From contig JAMXDE010000031.1 of assembly GCA_026770025.1 (NCBI GenBank), positions 62,001 through 126,000 of the forward strand: DNA of 64,000 nt. The letters are read 5' to 3'. The stretch comes from Craspedostauros australis. Its lineage: Eukaryota > Bacillariophyta > Bacillariophyceae > Mastogloiales > Achnanthaceae. The position numbers and the translations under genes were made by a program. Below are positions 36,179-47,500 of the stretch, piece by piece. The notes beneath the pieces were generated by a model that had not been told where the DNA came from, did not search any database, and saw only the letters and a list, made by a program, of their open reading frames with translations. The number at the start of each line of letters is the position of its first letter. Position 1 is the stretch's first letter.

Positions 36179-38656
36179 GGTTGCTCTCTGTTCTCCTTGT
36201 GTTTCTCTTATTATGTGTTCCTGAAGTTCTGCGTCGTTGTTTTCGTTGTGGCTGTTGTTGTTGTCGTTGCCCTTGTCGTTGCTGTGTCTGTTTCGCCTCG
36301 TGCGAGCAACTCGCCTCCTGTTCTTGCAGCGCAAATCGTCTTCTTTGTCTCCTTCGATTTGATTCAGTGTCCACGATGTTCGCTGTTCCATCCACGTTCT
36401 CGTGGTTGTGCCCGCATCCACTGCGTGGATCGCGCAGAGTGCGATCTTCCACGCCTGGCAAAAACTCGAGTAAACACGGCGTCTTGTTCGTTGTGCCGAA
36501 GTTCACCGCACAAGTCTTGGCAAAACACGACACGATTATTCGATGGTTGGATTCATTCGACTCGTACACAGATGCCTATGTCGTGCACGTTTGGATCGAT
36601 AGATCGGCCACCACACATCATTGTGTGAATTTCACAGACAAAGCAACAACCGGAATGACATTGTGTCAATTATTATGGATCTATATGTAACATGCCGCGC
36701 CTCCCAACTATCGCCTTCAAATTGCATCATGATTTGACTTGCTGTTGTTGTTGTTGTTGTTGTTGTTGTACTGGTCAGTGTTGTGCTTAGGATAGCGTTG
36801 TCTATTGCCATGGCCTGCTGTGTCTCTATCTCTCCTGGAAGATGAACACATTGCTCTTATTTTCTGGGGCATGAGAGTTGGTTAAGGTTTGCTTGTCTAA
36901 GTTTCCATTCAGCTACGCATCCTTTGGTCTCAAACATCCTCGCAGCGAAGAATTGGTTTTCAATGTTCGTCCAGTGCCATGGTACAAGAATTGCACTTTT
37001 GGCATTTCTGTTTTGTTGACGCAACCATCCGGAGCAGAACAGAGGACAGTAGAGCATGGAGTAGCGCTCTTGCAACGTTCCTGAAGACGATTCAACGATG
37101 CTGTCGTATTCATGGATTGAACGATCGCATTCAAATGGGCTCTGTTCATTTTGGTAATGCTATGCCATGAGAGTGCATAACAATATCAGTGTTGATTTTG
37201 GTTGTTCATACCATGCTTCAATTCTCTTGGCACTTGTAGGTTACACTACCTGTCGAAGCCGTTCAGGTTGACGTCAAGGTTTGAGTGGACATCCAGGTTT
37301 GAGGGAATGCCAAGTGATCTTGCAAAGGTCACCAAATCAAGTGAAAGCCAATACAATAGCTTGGCTGTACTAAGCGTGGTTGTGTACTGTTTCTTGAATG
37401 TGATTTGTGCCAATCTGCAGTATTGCTATCTCTGTTCAGTACAATCTCCATAGAGTAGCTTGCTCTGAGGCCATGAGCCTATCTCTTCATTTTGAAGGTT
37501 GAGATGAGGATCATTGTTGCAATTTGTATGCATGCTCATATGCATGGATGCAAGAATGCATTGCTGGCTTGTTTGAGTTGGCTTGTGATATGGGATGTGC
37601 TCACCCGTTGGCAGCCGACATCGAATAAAGGAGGTTGAGGATCATGTGGGCCAGACTTCACTGAGCTGATGCGCCATTGCCATGATTTCATGAAGATGTT
37701 GGCAAGGTTGGATTGGATCTTGTTGTTGTTGGCAGTGTTGTTGTTCTTTTTCTTGAGTGCTTTGTTTGTTCTTCTCTTGATGGTCTTGTTCTTTGGTTGG
37801 GAGGTTGCTGACCAATGACCTTTGCCACCAGCAGTGGCAGTACGAGCAACAGTCTGTGTGTGGTGGTGGATGCAGTTCAGTGATGGATTCTGTCTTGATG
37901 TCGCCAAACTCCTGTGCCAGGGAAAGGCATGGAATTGAAAGGAAACATTGGATTATGAGCTCACAGCACAAGCCATTTACTTCTGATGTGGTCTCTGCTC
38001 TGCTGCGTACGATTCAGCTGCAAGTGTCCTATCTAACGCTCAAATAACTGTTAATAACGTCTGCATCTCCTTGTCACCATCGCACGAGCCGTTCGTTTGT
38101 GGGAGTGACTTCCGAAGAGTCAAATCCAAACACCGCGTGAAGAAACAGAACCCGAAGTGTTCTGATTCGCATCATCTGCTGAGTGGAGGTCTGCCCTTTT
38201 GTGATTGGATGTTTGGCAGATTGATTTCTCTGAGCTGGACCGTACGTGGAAACCCTACCAAGATCTTAGTTGCCCTGACGTCACGGCGCGGAGGATCTTC
38301 CACCTTTCTCTTCTTTTGACTTCGACGCGCGACGGTGCGCAGCAACAGACAGAGAGACAGAAGGCAGAGAGAGAAAGAGACATCACATCAACAGCGAATG
38401 ACAGCCACCAACAACACCACGTAACTCGCCGCCAACATCATCAACAACGCCAACACAGATCCCCCGCATCTCCTCCCGTCGAGTCTCGTTTCCGCAACAC
38501 TTTTCGCCTTTGGATCTCGCCCGCACACATCCACAAAGTGACATCAACAGCATCAGGCCGACAAGAACTTTTATTGTTATACAACCTTCCCTGTCTGCCC
38601 ATTCCCCACAACACCGCAACACCGCAACACCACCACAGCAAAGAAGTAAGAACACA
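36179..38656. other. Gene-free 2.5-kb region with CAA-rich leaders and lower GC
   Basis: It lies between the divergent starts of CUL1 and the plastid protein gene. Next to each gene is a CAA-rich leader: read on the minus strand at about 36180-36420 for CUL1, on the plus strand at about 38380-38650 for the plastid gene. A GTT microsatellite occurs at about 36740-36768. From about 36850 to 38050 the sequence is more AT-rich than its surroundings. No gene is supported; short open frames on both strands lack motifs. Confidence 0.45.
36740..36769. repeat. GTT trinucleotide microsatellite
   Basis: About nine GTT/TGT triplets in a row, in intergenic DNA upstream of CUL1. Confidence 0.85.
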
Positions 38657-40624
38657 ATGAAGTACTGCGCTGCGATCATCCCAGCGGCCGTCGCGGCTGC
38701 CACCATCACCACTGCCGCCGCCTTCGCACCAGCCACCTTCGTGAGAAGCGCAGGCAGCGCCCAGAGCGCCTCCGAGACGTCCTCCTCCGCTCTCTTCATC
38801 TCCTCGTGGGGCAAGAAGGGACCACCAACCCGCGGGGCCGATTCCGGCCTCGGCAAGCAGAGCCCCGCGGACAACATCCAGGCCTACCTGCCCCAGCCAG
38901 ACTCCGTGGAGGCCCGCAACACCCTCGACGGCAAGGTCCTCGTGAGCGGCCTGGTGCAGACCAAGGAACGCACGGACCAGCTCCTCTTCGACTTCTGCAA
39001 CGACGCGGAATCCGCCTTCGAATTCGACAAGATCGTCGCCTTCGTTCCTGACGTCAAGTTCGCCAAGAAGCGCCTTCTCAGCCGATCGGCGCGCTACGGA
39101 GGACTGCTCAACAAGCTCGAGTTCGAAGAGCAGACCCGCGACGAGGAGGGCACCGTCACCACCACCGTCCCCACCCTGGACCAGATGAAGGGCGTCAAGA
39201 GCTGGATCGTCTACCTCGATGATCCTGCCACCATGGTCGATCAGCTGGCGCAGACAGTCGCCGTGGCCAGGGACTCCAGCGAGCTCGAGAACCTCGCCAT
39301 CCTCCTCGCCAACTCCCAAGGCCTCGACCTCGCCTCCAGCCAGACCATCCTGGAATCCCTCAAGGCGGACAACGGCACTTCCTACACCCTCTGCGCCGTC
39401 GGCAAATTGACGGACACCGAGGAAGGCAAGGCACCGTACAAGTACGCAGAATTCGCCACCGAGGAGGGCGTGTTGCCACAGAACGCCAAATACTCACGCA
39501 ACGAGGCCTACCGTCTCATCACCGAATGTCTGCAGCTCGAGTGCGGCGTCAACAAGGCGCTCACCTTCTCCGAGGTCACCGATGAGGACGAGCCCGAGTA
39601 CAAGCTCGTCAAGGGACTCCGCGAGGGAGGTTACGTGCGCATGCAAGAAATTGATCACATGATCCGCAACGGTCCAGAGGTGAGCCACCCATCATGGACA
39701 ATCCCGTACTGCCTCGTATTGCCGTTTGCTCTATTCCACGGCCTTGCCTTGTCTGATGGTTGCTGCACACACATTTGGCCGCAGCAGCTCTGCACCAATT
39801 GCGGTTTCACGTTGAGTTCATGTCATATTTGCGCAATTGTTGTTGATGGTATCTTCGCAATACTCCATCCTGCTCTACTCGAACTGCTATTTATTGTCAC
39901 ATTCGCCTCACCATTTCCACATCGCGTCTTGTCTCTCGAATTCTCCAACATCGCTCGCCAAATACTGTTGCTCTATCAACAAACGACGCCGACAACGATG
40001 ACAATTACAATACAATTACAACCCCGATACATTGCAATTGACGAAATGAAAAAACAAAACAAACACTGCTCAACTCCATTTTGAACACGAATGCAGGCCT
40101 ACAAGAAGGCCATCGAGGAATTCGATGAGAAGAACCCAGACTACAAGAGCGGCGTCTACACAACGGAAGCCTGGTGGGAGGAGCCAAGATTCAAGGAACA
40201 GCTGGCGCAGCTCCGCGCCGAGCAGGGACAGACCGACAAGGACAATGGCGTCGAGGAAGAGGTTGTCAAGGACGAGAGGACGTTGAAGATCGAAGAGATC
40301 GCCACTGACTGGGCAAAGCGTGAGTACTTCAAGCAAAACATGGACGGAACCATCGATGAGAGCATGACCGAGGAGGAGTACACCAAGTCCGTCTGGGACC
40401 GCGCCCTCTTCGAGGGTGACCTCAAGTACAGACAGATGAATGGCGAGACCCCGGACGCTGAGGCCGAGCTGGCAGACTTCAAGGTGCGCCAGGAACGCAA
40501 AGAGCAGACCATGCTGGAACGTGCCAAGGCCGAGCTCACCGAGATACTGGAGGAGGAGAACTTGGGTGGAAAGGACTTGGAGGAAACGTTGTCGAAGATC
40601 GAGCCAAGGAGCAGCAGCGACTAA
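38657..40624 (+). CDS. Plastid-targeted protein of unknown function
   Basis: Two exons, 38657-39679 and 40097-40624, phase-0 intron of 417 bp (GTGAGC...TGCAG); 516 residues. The N-terminus is a textbook diatom bipartite presequence: hydrophobic signal (AAIIPAAVAAATITT) and AAAFAP at the cleavage site, followed by Ser/Arg-rich transit sequence. The mature part includes EFDKIVAFVPDVKFAKKRLL, then WIVYLDDPATMVDQLAQTV and ANGCT-free acidic segments; its alternation of strands and helices could be a Rossmann-like fold, but no nucleotide-binding glycine motif is clear. The C-terminal exon is highly charged and helical (YKKAIEEFDEKNPDYKSGVY and later long Glu/Lys-rich helices). No family recognised with confidence. 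Codon use is strongly C-ending, which in this window hints at high expression. Confidence 0.75.
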
Positions 40625-41508
40625 ACCATCGGGGAGTGAGGGACCGCAATCGATGTTCCACCTGCAAAGCTTGCCTGTGCATCGCGGCTGTGCGTCGCGG
40701 CTCCCATGCCCCATCTCCACCTTCCTTCACACTCATGATGCATTGCATGATGTTTCGCAAAACATGATATTTGTATCACCAAATACCTATACCAAACCTG
40801 CATACCATACTTCTGCAATGCTCCTGCAAATACACGATACTCGCAACGCAGCGGAATGAGCCAATTGGGCAATAGGCATCTCCCTCGTGCCATTCTGATT
40901 CGTTCGGGTTGATGGCAATCATATCGAGTTCTGTCAGCACTTGTGGCTGAGAGATTGCGTGGCACTCACTCCTTGATCCGTTGTCACACAAACGCAACGA
41001 TCGAGATCAAAATGCAGGAGGCCTGCGAATACTCCTCGGCGCAATACGATACCACACTCTCTAGAGATCAGCATACTTTTCAACAGCGCCGCGAGTCCCA
41101 TCGTATGTAGCATGGTATGCATATTCTAAAACGAGCTTCGCATGTGTGCGGAATAGTCGTTGGACAGTAGTGATTCCACTCGTAGCCAATCAAGTTCCAT
41201 GTTGCGACACTGCGTACTTGTGGGTGTGGTCTGACTATGGCATGAAGCAAGCATGATAAACTTCACAGTATCGGATGATCTAATCAATGATGCCCATGTT
41301 GTCCTCTCGAAACACGCATTCGAATTGGTGCTGCGTTGACTTCGACACTGCCTTGTGCTGCGTCAGATTGGGGAACGCTGCTTGGTCGTTCATTGCGGAC
41401 CAAGCGCGCACTCATCGTCATTCCAGCACTGGCGGCGTATTAATACTTGTAGGTGTATCCGGAGCATCAACCGGCAACCAACCAATGCCATCTGATAGCG
41501 TCCATGTC
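40625..41508. other. Convergent 3' region; MsrA 3' untranslated region
   Basis: The interval lies between two convergent stop codons. On the minus strand it contains the probable 3' untranslated region of MsrA, where a SECIS element would be expected. A perfect 8-bp hairpin is at 41380-41405. No gene is supported. Confidence 0.4.
41380..41405 (-). other. 8-bp hairpin in the MsrA 3' region (weak SECIS candidate)
   Basis: On the minus strand GCTTGGTC pairs perfectly with GACCAAGC around a 10-nt loop that contains AA. An ATGA lies just 5' of the stem (41412-41415). The required GA of the opposing SECIS quartet is not found at the expected place on the 3' side, so this does not meet the eukaryotic SECIS consensus as I can judge it. 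Confidence 0.2.
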
Positions 41509-42336
41509 TTAGCGCCGCCCCTTGCTATTGCGACTCAAAAAGTCTTGATGCCGTGCTTCTGCCATGTAAAAACGCGCCGCCAACTCCACGTCCACAAAGT
41601 CCGGACTCCAATTGCGCACCGCAGCTTTCGCAATCGTTTCCTGCTGCGCGTTCAGTACAAACGCGGCCGTCCGGTACTGCGTCTTGGTTTGGTACGGCGT
41701 GCCAACGAGCTGCATCCACTTGTCCAAGATGCGTTCGTACGACATGGATTTGGCATCGTACTCGATGAGAAGAGATTCCGTGTGATCCTTCATGTCAAAG
41801 TACGTGGGGTTGGCTTCGTTGCCACCAGAGTACCCGACGATGCAGCGCTGATGTTCATGTACATTGATGGAAGTATAAAATAATAATTGATGCCAGACGT
41901 ACGAAATTGAAGATGCGTACGAATACGTGTATGGATGGAGATGATGGGCGGTGGGTGATGATTTGCACATATGTCAGTGGTCCGAACGCTGATAAATCAC
42001 TGACATACGACCTCGTCGTAGGGCACAGCCGCATCAACAGGATGCGGTTCTGTGGACTTGCAATGGCAGCTGCCTGTCACTCGGTCTCACCTTCACACCT
42101 GACATCGCCTTGAATTCTGGCTGCGGCGTCCAGAATCACCCGCATGCAACGATGGCGATTTCATTGCCAGGTCTCGGTCGAAGAGGCACCTCAGGGCATG
42201 ATGCCGACGCTAATGCCGATGCCGAATTGCGTTGTGGTACGACTATTGATCTCGGCGTCAACGCCGTTCTTGGTGGCGAAGGCGAAAAGGCGCAGATCGA
42301 AGCAATGCCCACCAGCAGGAGGGAACACCGGACCAT
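41509..42336 (-). CDS. MSRA: Plastid MsrA, probable selenoprotein (in-frame TGA at active site)
   Basis: MsrA reduces methionine-S-sulfoxide in proteins. Two exons, 42336-42091 and 41847-41509, phase-0 intron of 243 bp (GTGAGA...ATCAG); 194 residues if TGA is read through. The N-terminus is a signal peptide (CSLLLVGIASICAFSP) with a plastid-type cleavage motif. The catalytic motif, normally GCFW, reads G-TGA-FW at codon 67 (42138-42136), preceded by NEIAIVAC and followed by TPQPEFKAMSGVK. Across the intron it continues RCIVGYSGGNEANPTY, DHTESLLIEYD and TQYRTAAF, all standard MsrA features. Homology on both sides of the TGA, exactly where catalytic Cys belongs, points to selenocysteine, as known for green-algal MsrA. 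Alternatives are a nonsense mutation or sequencing error. No convincing SECIS was found. It is divergent from the methyltransferase at 43027. Confidence 0.8.
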
Positions 42337-43026
42337 CCTCAGGCAGAGAGTTTCGGATTCGGATTTGATCATTGTCATCATCATTGATGTTGCAGTCACC
42401 TCCACCCTCCCATTGTACTACTACTCTCGCCAGGAGGTCCGAATAGTGACAAAGATACCATCCTGTTTGGAGATGACGATTGTATTTCATTTTGTTAGCA
42501 ACTCCTCCAAATATCACTATTGAAAAATGACGCAAAATCAGGATGCCCTGATGACGTCCAGACTTACTGTGTGTTGCATCATATTTGGTCAGAAATAGAA
42601 AATCAATATTTGGGCAATATGTACACGATGACGGGACCATCGGAAAAATGATACAGGTATTCGCCTTGCAATCTTCTTTGATTCGTTCGGCATTTGGTGA
42701 AACCTGACCCAAACCTGTGTGAAGGTGTTTGCGGACGACGAATTGGCGGATGCGATTTGTTGTGGAGTCAACAGGTCCGAAGGGATGCGACAAATCGGTA
42801 CAGTGGAGACAAGATCTGGCGCTTTCGCACCTCCGCTCTCTTTCGGCAACGATCAAGAACACGAATAGCCCTTGACCAGCGTGCCCTCAGCATGTGCAAG
42901 GCCACGACAACCGTTTGGAAGACGTTCCCGGCGATGACGACGACAGGGAAAAGAACACAACCGACGCCACGGAAAGTGCGTCTTTCCAGTCCAACCCAGC
43001 CTCCGACGTGTTTCGAGTCATCGTCC
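42337..43026. promoter_or_regulatory. Divergent promoter region, MsrA and methyltransferase
   Basis: This 690-bp region separates two divergent genes for plastid-targeted proteins. The methyltransferase frame is open upstream through part of it, but that sequence reads as basic, low-similarity peptide ahead of the signal peptide. No specific site can be named. Confidence 0.4.
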
Positions 43027-44100
43027 ATGCTGGCGCAAACAATCGTAGTCGCCGTCACCCTCGCTGTGATCGCGCATGCCTTCGACGCTGCACCATCGAC
43101 AGGCTTCTGGGTGCACGTGCCCTGCAACATCCCAGGTGCGCAGGCTCTGTCCGACAATGCGACACCCCGAAGGACACCATCATCTTTGTCATCGCCCGTG
43201 ACCGACTTTGCCGAGTTCTTTCAGCCTCGGCACCAGCAGGGAAGAGCGCTGGAAAGAATAGGATGGCCCAACATCATCGAGCTGATGCCAACAGGATCAG
43301 ACGAAGCACCAGGATCCCCCAGCGCTCTCAAATCAGATGCAACAAGTCCAACAGGAAAGAGTCGGGATGACGGCAATGGCAACGGGAAGACAAGATCATA
43401 CGAGAACAGAAAGCCGCTGCGGCAGCAGCTGTTCACGTCACCGCTGATCTCAGTTCTGTACGAACGCATCTTGCCACCTCTTTGGGAAGCAGGTCTGCGC
43501 ATCGGCGGCCCGGATGCCGAATATGATGCGGCGACATCGCACCTCACTGGTGACGGCACGGGCATTCTTCTGGACTTATCCTGCGGCACCGGCTTCGTGG
43601 CGAGGCGATTTGCCAAGGCGGGCAGATACCAGCATGTGTTTGCTCTGGACTACTCCTTGCAAATGCTGGGCGAATGCAAGGCAACGATCCAACGCGATGT
43701 CGCCGAAACATCACAACGATCATCCATCGGAAGCAACACCGATGGCGCATACTGGAACGACCTCTCCCTCATTCGCGGCGATGCGTGCAAGCTCCCTTTC
43801 CGCGATGCCACTTTGGATGCGGTGCATTGGGGTGCTGCAATGCATTGCGTTCCCGATGCGGAGATGGCCATGTGCGAGATCTATCGCGTGCTGAAGCCCG
43901 GTGGTAAGCTCTACGCGACGACCTTCCTGCGTCCATTTCCGGACGTCGTCTTCCGCTTCTTCGAACTGCACGAGATCGAGCAGCTGGCTCGCGACGCTGG
44001 TTTCGGTGAACGGAGCGGCAGAAACAATGCCGGAGAGGCGCTGTCTGTGTCAAGAGTTGGTGTGTACGGTGTTCTGAAAGCGAAGAAAGGTATGGAGTAA
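43027..44100 (+). CDS. Plastid SAM-dependent methyltransferase (At2g41040/At1g78140-like)
   Basis: Predicted class I methyltransferase using S-adenosylmethionine; 357 residues, single exon. The ATG at 43027 starts a signal peptide (TIVVAVTLAVIAHAF) with HAFDAAP at the cleavage site. The SAM-binding motif I is ILLDLSCGTGFVARRFAK (residues ~180-197), then FALDYSLQML with the acidic residue after strand 2. RGDACKLPFRDATLDAVHWG with AAMHCVPD, then EIYRVLKPGGKLYATTFL, closely follow the plant chloroplast proteins annotated as uncharacterised methyltransferases At2g41040 and At1g78140, which sit in plastoglobules. A substrate cannot be assigned. The upstream open frame to 42694 is not used because it buries the signal peptide. 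The neighbour MsrA is also plastid-targeted and divergent. Confidence 0.85.
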   Translation: MLAQTIVVAVTLAVIAHAFDAAPSTGFWVHVPCNIPGAQALSDNATPRRTPSSLSSPVTDFAEFFQPRHQQGRALERIGWPNIIELMPTGSDEAPGSPSALKSDATSPTGKSRDDGNGNGKTRSYENRKPLRQQLFTSPLISVLYERILPPLWEAGLRIGGPDAEYDAATSHLTGDGTGILLDLSCGTGFVARRFAKAGRYQHVFALDYSLQMLGECKATIQRDVAETSQRSSIGSNTDGAYWNDLSLIRGDACKLPFRDATLDAVHWGAAMHCVPDAEMAMCEIYRVLKPGGKLYATTFLRPFPDVVFRFFELHEIEQLARDAGFGERSGRNNAGEALSVSRVGVYGVLKAKKGME

Positions 44101-44584
44101 CCGTATCGCAGAGTACAACAATTCTTCCTCCTCGCAGCCGACACTGCGGCGGCATCCTCCTGTTCGTCGATAACTGTACTAGTACGAGCTATCAGATTGG
44201 AAGATGCAATATCCAGCACAGGCCGCGTCTTGAGATGCACGAGTAGAGACGCTGGCAACCGAGAGATCGTACACGTTGTACGGGGAAAATGAGGCAATAG
44301 ACCCAAGCGGAATGGTAACGACAAGCCATTTCGAAGCATGGTGTGGAATGACATGGCATGGTGTGATACGACACTCTATGACAACTGTTAACACTGCACA
44401 GACGGTTCCAGAGTTAGGCATATTCTTCCTTGTGTCAAAATTGATGTGTTGTCGAAGCACAGCCCACAGCCCATAGTATCGGTGGTTCCGTATGGTACTC
44501 TCTCGCATACCCCGTGTGGCCATGGCCAAATCGATCGCCTGTGACCTACCACACCTCCCGTACTCGTACCATATTTGTATTTCA
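44101..44584. other. Convergent 3' intergenic region
   Basis: Nearly 500 bp between the stop codons of the methyltransferase and the HMG-box gene. No gene, repeat or RNA is visible. Confidence 0.4.
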
Positions 44585-47500
44585 CTACATGCGTCCGCTT
44601 TGATCATTGAAGTCGTTTCCGAGATGTCCGTTGGGGTGAATATAGGATGAGGCATTGGCGTTGTTGCCAACCCCCATAGTTAATTGGCTGTTGCTGGTGT
44701 TTGCGTTTGTAACATTTGTTGATGCATTTGGATCCAGTTGAGCCGATAGCGGGCCTCGATGAACTTGCGTACCTGCGAACGAGGCTAATTGATTCAACGA
44801 GGCTTGATTCAGAAGTTGAGGTTGTTGCTCCTGCTGCTGCTGTTGCTGCTGAGATTGTTGCTGTGGCTGGAATAGCTGAGGTTGAAGATGCTGTAGTGTG
44901 TGTTGCATTGCTTGCTGCATGTCTCGAATCGGATGGTTGTCCCGGAGCGGTGTGGGTTGCAAGTGCGACTGACCAAGACCCTGCATTGAGTGTTGAGCTT
45001 GGACCCGTGCCTGCTGCTGCATCGATTGTGCGTTGGAATCTAAATGCATCGATGTGATCAGGATACAATTTCATGTGACGAAGTGAATTTGATTTGAGTA
45101 TAGAATGGCACCATGGTCCAGAAAGTATCGACGATCAATCCGAGATGAGATACGCACGTGGATAATGATAACGGAACGAAGTCATGGGTAGCAAAGAGCA
45201 GCGGTAGACACAGCGACGACAATTGACAAGTGAGCTCATCGAAGACCGACATGAGGAACCAGCAGTGTAAGGGCAGAACATGTTTGCTTCGTCCCGGCTG
45301 TTGATTTCTCGCACAAGGCATTGCGCTTGCTGCGCAATGGAGACAAAGAGCTGCAGGTACACTCGGATCACTTACTCATCCCGTACATGTTCATGTTCAG
45401 CCCGGTGAGCTGAGTGTTCCTCGGAAGCTGGTGCCCGAAACTCTGTGGTGCCGTCATGGCAGCTGCTGAAGTTTGTGGCGTTGCTGCGGCTGACGCCGCT
45501 GTGGAGACGACAGCCATAGGCTGGGTTTGCATCTGAAATCCCTGGTAGGGGAAACCGAGTGCTCCAATCGCTTCAAGCATCTGTGCGTTTTGTTGCATTC
45601 CAATCGGGAGCTGCGCACCACTGGCATTGCCATGCCCGGCCGGCTGCTGCTGCGATTGCTGTTGTTGTGACTGCGGCTGCTGTTGTCGTTGCTGTCGTTG
45701 TTGTTGCTGCTGCTGCTGCGGTACTCCGGCTGCATCCTGCTGAAGCTGACTGGCTATTGCATTGCCCTGCACATTTTGGAGGAAGGGAGACATGTCAATG
45801 AGATTCCCGCCACCGGCCACTGCTGCGGCTGCTCCCAACAGTCCTTGGTGAAGGTGCATCTGGAAATCGGATGCCGTGGGTAGACTACCTCCAGTTGCTG
45901 CGCTTGCTGTTGGTACCGCCCCTGCTGTTCTTGCTCCCGTTGACGTTGACGTTGACGGTGCTGGTGTTGCTGAGCCTGAGCCTGTGGATGGAGCTGTTCC
46001 TGCTGGTGGTGCGGATGCGACACCAAATGGGTAAGTTGATGGTGCGCCCCGGACCCCGCTAAGCGCCGATGCTGCCATCATTTCGTCTGTGTTTGGCCCG
46101 CCGTATCCATGTGCTATGAGCTCGTTGGCCGCGGTCAAAGTTGTCATCTGTCGATGCGCCTGTTGCTGTGCCTGTTGTTGCGTTTGTGCGGCGAGCGCGG
46201 TAGCTGCAGCCATCGTGAATCCCGATTGAAGTGCCGATTGCATCGGGTCGATGATCCCAGCGGATACTGCTGGGGTGTTCCCCATACCCCGCAGCGCCTT
46301 GTTCGCTTGAGAATTGCGTTTCTTCCTACCGTCATTCTCTTTCTTCCACTTCACCATCTTCGCCTTGTATTCAGCCCACATGGATGCCTCTTCTGCGCGA
46401 AACCTCTGCTTATCAGCTGCATCCGCCTCCTTCCACATGTTGCTGAGGATCTTGCTGATCTCTCCGTTGGTGCAATCCGGATTCTTCGCCTTCACAGCCC
46501 CCCTCCTGCTGTTGGCGTATGACAGATATGCTGACATGGGTCGTTTCGGAGCATTCGGGTTTCGCATTTTACGCGATCCGGGGCCACCGATCGAACCAGG
46601 GTACGCTGCCTTTTCCCGCTCGTACCGTTGCTTGTCCACACGGGCCATCTCTTCGTACACCGCCCGATCTTCAGGTTTCATGCCCCTCCATGCCTGTGCA
46701 ACCATCTTCGTGATGTTCGAGTGCTGCTTCGTTTGTGTTCATTCGATTCCATTCGAGTTCATTCGATCCCCACGGCATGACATGGTACGCCATGTTTCAT
46801 TTTGTGTTGGTGGGATGCAACGTGGTTGGTGCATTGGTAGTTTGCGTGTGATTGGTGAGTATGATCCATATATTGTGTTGCGTGCATTGTATAACATAAT
46901 AGTAATAGTACGAGCACGTGCGTGTTGTTTGGTGATGTTGGTTTGTGTACGTATTGCCCATCCACACGAAATGGCGTGTTTGAGAGGATTCAATGAAATT
47001 TGTTGTTTGTTGCGTTTCCAATCGCGCCCAGGGGGAAGTATTCGCAGCAGACAACAGGAATGACAAGGAGGGCGTGTGGTGAGGTCGTCGGTATCAGCGG
47101 GGCTTGGTTGGTCTTGGACTTTTCTGTGGCAAATAACAATCCCAACGCGCACGGGCTGATGACACATTTCTGCTGCCACTGCCACTGCTACATCATGATT
47201 CGCACGTTATGCACCATCACTCGCACAGATGCTTACCTGAACTCCATCCGCTTGTTTCGCAATTTCTTCTCTAACTTCTTTGTGCTTTTGCATGGAGAAG
47301 AAGATGAAAGAACTGCTCACAAAGTATGCGAACCAAGGGATGTTGAGGTTGTTGTTGCGGTTGGTGTAGTTGCCATATTCACAGAGTTGTGTTATTCATT
47401 TCCAGACAACGAACAGATGGAGTGGATGAGAATGACAATATGCATTCGAGACTCTAGAACACGAGTGCAAGTAGAAGTCCTCCACATTCGAATCTACCGG

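Follow-up and report, generated by a model that had tools for sequence, protein, structure and literature searches.

A probable selenocysteine-containing methionine-S-sulfoxide reductase with a plastid-like leader in the diatom Craspedostauros australis

Methionine-S-sulfoxide reductases (MsrA) work through a catalytic residue that attacks the sulfoxide and is recycled by a resolving Cys or by a reductant (PMC4333827). Selenocysteine (Sec) forms of the enzyme have been described in several groups. For example, the selenoprotein MsrA of Clostridium oremlandii (CoMsrA, structure entry 4lwj) has one Sec and is free of Cys; glutaredoxin, but not thioredoxin, reduces it, and its Sec form is 20-fold more active than its Cys form (PMC4333827). 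In algae, MSRA has been reported as one of the Sec proteins with the widest distribution, and diatoms have been credited with 20-44 selenoprotein genes (PMC7539508). Another example is the Sec-containing MsrA of the diatom Thalassiosira pseudonana, an organism that has a tRNA-Sec, which was published in 2007 (PMC2375036). A diatom Sec-MsrA is thus already in print, and the gene described here adds one more; what is less expected, and looks new, is the presence in one genome of three such genes, two of them with leaders, together with a common GAATGAC core 3' of the selenoprotein genes, in most cases lacking the apical AA of the canonical element, and the way in which the same genes avoid TGA as a terminator. 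The comparison with the T. pseudonana enzyme is one of published description, and implies no orthology to any of the three genes.

The window (the whole 64-kb stretch of DNA that was analysed) contains on its minus strand an MsrA gene of two exons, 42336..42091 and 41847..41509, and this is very probably a working nuclear gene that encodes a Sec-containing MsrA of 194 residues, or about 150 once the leader is removed. Its features are the following.

42091..42336, minus strand: MsrA exon 1, codons 1-82; the proteins P0002-P0005 align on either side of the TGA
42136..42138, minus strand: TGA in frame at codon 67, in place of the catalytic Cys of GCFW; read from the sequence
41848..42090, minus strand: phase-0 GT-AG intron of 243 nt; the junction agrees with protein P0001
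41509..41847, minus strand: MsrA exon 2, with TAA end; match to PF01625
42199..42336, minus strand: N-terminal leader, MVRCSLLLVGIASICA/FSPSPP...; read by eye, resembling a bipartite plastid presequence

The open frame of exon 1 starts at ATG 42336 (an additional in-frame ATG lies at 42384) and reads ...NEIAIVACG-TGA-FWTPQPEFKAMSGVK as far as 42091; the intron is bounded by GTGAGA and CAG, and exon 2 runs from RCIVGYSGG through NPTYFDMKDHTE and QYRTA to a TAA whose final base is 41509. Counted from ATG 42336, the TGA at 42138-42136 is indeed codon 67, at the catalytic Cys, as a sequence-only reading of this DNA had proposed, and the continuation of the frame across the phase-0 intron into RCIVGYSGG and QYRTA was confirmed as well. 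No other in-frame stop precedes the TAA. When codon 67 is taken as Cys, the product matches the PMSR domain PF01625 with 92.8 bits (cut-off 23.7), and the NCBIfam msrA model gives 85 bits, under its cut-off of 108.1; when the TGA is taken as Sec, the catalytic G-C/U-F-W motif reads GUFW.

Protein sets derived from transcripts and from other genomes bear on this gene model. P0001 (MMETSP and JGI), of 117 aa, is 100% identical to the product of the window gene, and it supports the intron because it joins MSGVK to RCIVGYSGG. Its first residue is a Met 11 codons past the TGA; this is the output expected of an ORF caller if the transcript carries the TGA stop, though a 5'-truncated transcript could yield it as well. 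In a first search for relatives (12 proteins), four showed W at the catalytic site and eight started past it. Among the best 120 of 4557 relatives from a profile search, the site reads GWFW in 19 and GCFW in three (P0016, P0018, and P0058, where Cys aligns to the window TGA), 70 start past the site (that is, their first residue lies at most 16 aa ahead of GYxGG), and the other 28 include gene models that skip or distort it. The sequence-only reading had suggested looking in relatives for U or C aligned to this codon; C was found in the three just named, and the W of the 19 is probably TGA under another code, since a gene finder set to translate TGA as Trp would produce it. Since 70 of the best 120 listed begin past the site, public protein sets probably often hold truncated or wrongly modelled versions of such genes. 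Named relatives include proteins from Cylindrotheca closterium, Entomoneis paludosa, Seminavis robusta, Epithemia clementina, and one 'Thalas...' entry, which, together with a Rubisco large subunit encoded on a plastid contig (C90), agree best with a diatom; the five best solved matches of this subunit, probably diatom Rubiscos, score 1049-1072 bits, well ahead of the sixth at 926. Viral contigs also yielded two distant matches to the MsrA profile, at 29 and 32% identity.

In the genome (74.8 Mb searched, in 90 contigs), the window MsrA is accompanied by ten other genes with an in-frame TGA at a Sec site, the sites of all 11 having been placed by knowledge of the families and by Cys homologues rather than by a dedicated program.

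G000:C8:2268150-2268554 (L006/L028): TGA MsrA, leader present
G000:C9:886029-886406 (L021): TGA MsrA, leader absent
L023, L024, L025, L026, L037, L038, L039, L040: SPS2, SelT, two SelM, two GPx, two SelU; TGA at Sec sites

Two more MsrA genes thus have TGA at the same catalytic codon, which places that of the window gene beyond chance and bears out the earlier argument that a random nonsense mutation would be unlikely to fall there. The use of terminators is also distinctive. In the ten Sec genes whose end is resolved, TAA is found five times, TAG five times and TGA never (one SelM, L026, was left out of the count, its gene end not being settled), vs. eight TGA, three TAA, and two TAG in 13 other genes checked (0/10 vs. 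8/13 for TGA, Fisher p 0.0027). Sec genes therefore seem to avoid TGA as terminator; in the same genome TGA is a working stop, which argues against its reassignment to Trp.

The same genome encodes the machinery for Sec insertion, whose absence had been named beforehand as an observation that would speak against a selenoprotein. A tRNA-Sec gene is found at C19:1132677-1132762, scoring 76.6 bits against a gathering score of 47, and ARAGORN calls it as tRNA-SeC with anticodon TCA. Its neighbour on the same strand, some 60 bases away, is an RNase MRP RNA gene (L009, 1501-1586 and 1649-1940). SepSecS is matched with 306.3 bits (cut-off 224.85), and SPS2, itself with one TGA inside, matches TIGR00476 with 211.9 bits (cut-off 125). 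The elongation factor L054 is of the eEFSec type, its best solved chains being 5izk and 7zjw (382 bits), with a SelB chain far lower (171) and the bacterial selB model at 182, below its cut-off of 242. The SBP2-like protein L062 has an L7Ae domain and one distinct solved match, the SBP2 of 7zjw/7zjx (E 6.7e-17). For PSTK, only a weak PSTK-like locus (L064) was found. As a separate observation, a pair of elongation-factor-like loci (G000:C18:774498-775310 and G000:C32:320805-321617) have identical scores of 122.3 bits and are perhaps a recent duplicate. The proposal of a probable selenoprotein has thus gained support from the machinery genes, the other Sec-site TGA genes, the usage of stops, and the GAATGAC motif described below.

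Other readings of the in-frame TGA have to be set against these data. One mutation would be enough to make a pseudogene, the TGA being the sole in-frame stop; nevertheless, a chance nonsense mutation is very improbable, given that three MsrA genes of the genome have TGA at precisely their catalytic codon, that the remaining frame is intact with an identical P0001, that relatives keep Cys or a W that is probably TGA, and that GAATGAC lies 3' of the TGA genes and of none of 11 Cys homologues. The pseudogene that the earlier reading had foreseen as a refutation is therefore not what the homologues show. An equally slight chance attaches to a Cys codon hidden by an assembly error or by RNA editing: TGA is a single base away from TGC and TGT, but P0001 begins at a Met past the TGA, as if the transcript had its stop there, and the two paralogues have TGA as well. 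The least probable of all is that TGA is a reassigned sense codon of the nuclear genome, for example for Trp. The W found at the catalytic site of relatives in public protein sets would fit such a code; however, it could be explained by gene finders reading TGA as Trp, TGA terminates most of the other genes checked, and the 11 in-frame TGAs studied are Sec sites of known selenoprotein families. We consequently keep to a functional Sec-MsrA gene, in which UGA codon 67 would be decoded as Sec by the tRNA-Sec, eEFSec, SBP2, SepSecS, and SPS2 of the organism itself.

Catalytic TGA codons are also common in prokaryotic relatives of this enzyme. In the nearest 80 of 533 confirmed prokaryotic loci (L065-L144), the catalytic codon is TGA in 25, TGT in 30, and TGC in 25, the TGA loci among those 80 belonging to Chloroflexota, Nitrospirota, Myxococcota, Bacillota, and others. 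The bacterial TGA genes (L065, L066, L068, and others) have their TGA at the codon that matches that of the diatom, with 32-40% identity for the closest three listed, whereas their Sec insertion signals would differ from those of the diatom. In a tree of 57 rows, which used 34 of the 80 prokaryotic loci, the three TGA MsrAs of the genome and their relatives cluster with bacterial Sec-MsrA, CoMsrA included (support 96/89), and stand apart from seven Cys MsrAs of the genome. The eighth Cys MsrA (L008) was kept out of this tree after showing a long branch in an earlier one, where it fell beside L028 at an unresolved fork.

The best solved matches to the family of the window MsrA are entries of the CoMsrA type (4u66, 4w8c, and 7c13, with residues identical to those of 4lwj). 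Like the window MsrA, CoMsrA has Sec at this position and lacks a C-terminal resolving Cys; unlike it, the clostridial enzyme depends on bacterial Sec insertion, has an extra C-terminal helical domain, and contains no Cys at all. After its leader the window MsrA has Cys47, Cys65, and Cys84, and none beyond Cys84, so the C-terminal resolving Cys is absent, as in the 1-Cys/1-Sec type. Sec67 would attack methionine-S-sulfoxide and, in an enzyme of this type, would then be regenerated by an outside thiol or with the help of Cys84, the two likely recycling partners as judged from the residues present. Cys84 is invariant in an alignment of 13 rows, but several relatives (L028, P0017, P0036, P0039, P0055, and P0058) lack it, which makes an outside thiol the more cautious choice.

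The location of the enzyme is suggested by its N-terminus. In diatoms, plastid leaders carry an AF-type cleavage motif, with Phe at the signal-peptide cleavage site. The window MsrA has a hydrophobic leader followed by ICA/FSPSPP, the leader of L006 is similar (SAAAFSPSLP), and those of P0002, P0019, and P0020 likewise end ahead of a Phe. From the look of this leader the protein is probably sent to the plastid. A product working elsewhere, in the secretory pathway, another organelle or the cytosol, is unlikely in comparison but carries real weight, as the look of the leader is what points to the plastid and the third TGA MsrA (L021) is leaderless; against it stand the hydrophobic stretch and Phe junction of the window gene, the similar junction in L006, and the leader ends of the three relatives. 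Among the papers searched, none contained phrases such as 'plastid-targeted selenoprotein', and the main text of PMC7539508, which deals with algal MSRA selenoproteins, never mentions plastid or chloroplast; this is weak evidence that plastid selenoproteins are hitherto undescribed. Two points are weaker here than in the sequence-only reading: the plastid targeting claimed there is made plausible by the look of the leader, and the novelty attached there to a diatom version is reduced by the Sec-MsrA known since 2007.

Decoding of UGA as Sec would need a SECIS element, and the best candidate in the 3' UTR of the window gene is a hairpin, 41438..41345, which would direct Sec insertion at codon 67. 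We regard it as a candidate only.

41345..41438, minus strand: putative SECIS hairpin of the 3' flank; fold prediction
41417..41423, minus strand: GAATGAC, 5' core of the candidate, 85 nt past the stop
41362..41365, minus strand: TGAC, 3' core of the candidate; read from the sequence and the fold

In the predicted fold, a 13-bp lower helix, made up of three runs (4+3+6), and an inner hairpin of 12 bp enclose a large open loop in which the TGAC/TGAC quartet sits. The candidate shares the TGA...GA quartet and the lower helix with the canonical eukaryotic SECIS (Rfam RF00031; SECISearch pattern). On the other hand, no AA/CC occurs 10-13 nt past the quartet, and helix II, for which at most three contiguous bp are possible above the quartet, is unformed in the predicted fold. 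The published search pattern NTGA N10-13 AA/CC N15-39 GA (PMC2375036) is accordingly unmatched. A search for a SECIS past 41509, as earlier proposed, has therefore yielded a GAATGAC and a strong lower helix, and neither the canonical pattern nor an apical AA nor helix II.

What sets this genome apart from the canonical SECIS is the GAATGAC core common to its TGA genes. The core emerged from a comparison of the SPS2 element with those of L028, SelT, and SelM L026; it was first noticed in these four of the 11 TGA genes and sought afterwards in the other seven, the window MsrA included. Within 1100 nt 3' of the stop it is present in 11/11 TGA genes (the stretch of SelM L026 beginning at an assumed position) and in 0/11 Cys homologues (eight MsrA, two SelU, and one GPx, one of them with 990 nt only). 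Past the stop of the window MsrA it occurs once in 1100 nt. The background is 12 occurrences in 262,358 nt of other nuclear loci, or 4.9% per 1100 nt, and the window itself holds 11 in 128,000 nt (both strands), about twice that rate. Lineage-specific conservation of sequence at the SECIS core has a precedent in Dictyostelium and Ostreococcus (PMC2375036).

The lower helix of the window candidate reaches -19.2 kcal/mol. In 3000 dinucleotide shuffles of the 885-nt flank, GAATGAC appeared in 326, a loose structural rule was satisfied in 17, and a helix of -15 kcal/mol or lower was reached in three, this threshold having been picked once the window value was known. When GAATGAC was replaced by a bare ATGA core, 12/300 shuffles reached -15 and 2/300 reached -19; the same structural rule then gave five sites at or below -15 in the window, the candidate included, and seven in the controls, so that the discriminating power comes from the GAATGAC core. 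In the window and 21 control loci (141,242 nt, both strands), the GAATGAC sites reaching -15 were those of the window MsrA and L021 only, and the control locus in question turned out to be itself a TGA MsrA. Chance probably accounts for the weaker hits seen in control L043 (-12.6) and at another window position (-8.5). The structural rule (GAATGAC with adjacent helices) is not sensitive, 4/8 tested TGA genes passing it (the window MsrA, SPS2, and both GPx). In a listing of elements for six of eight genes, SPS2 has the strongest lower helix (-23.7) and the window MsrA the second. An AA/CC at +10-13 of at least one GAATGAC is found in 4/11 genes (L028, SPS2, SelM L026, and L021, there at the second copy), the element of L006 being near-canonical (ATGA-N10-AA...TGA); SelM L025 has the GAATGAC and no convincing helix.

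Standard searches add little to this picture. No match to the Rfam SECIS_1 model came from window positions 38000..45000, from the entire genome, or from the surroundings of five other Sec loci; the model is uninformative here because it misses SPS2 with its strong element. Canonical scans of 1300-2500 nt 3' of the window MsrA gave nothing but one weak candidate (-10.5 kcal/mol in the 2500-nt scan, about 1.9 kb off, within the stretch of the neighbouring gene), and relaxed scans of the 3' flank gave many weak alternatives. That the true SECIS is another element of the 3' UTR is a minority possibility, a little weightier than a location outside the plastid: the hairpin's missing apical AA and the lack of a helix II beside the quartet speak for it, but the hairpin holds the sole GAATGAC within 1100 nt past the stop, its lower helix is surpassed only by that of SPS2 among the six listed elements, and the canonical scans offer no better rival. 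The hairpin 41438..41345 thus stays the preferred candidate.

Should the enzyme act in the plastid, the repair of oxidised plastid proteins under light stress would be directly affected by selenium status in a major group of primary producers. GAATGAC is a simple handle for selenoproteins of this lineage that are missed by Rfam SECIS_1. A wider proposal joins both aspects, namely Sec-dependent methionine repair in the plastid by the window gene and L006, together with a lineage form of SECIS in which GAATGAC is invariant and the apical AA dispensable, so that standard searches miss many; we advance it tentatively, with somewhat less than even confidence. Finally, the window MsrA is flanked by two genes on the plus strand. 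The convergent neighbour (38270..40624), whose 3' end bounds the MsrA 3' flank analysed, has a plastid-like leader (AAAFAPATF), and the divergent neighbour (42520..44100) is an open frame, by eye methyltransferase-like, with a hydrophobic leader.
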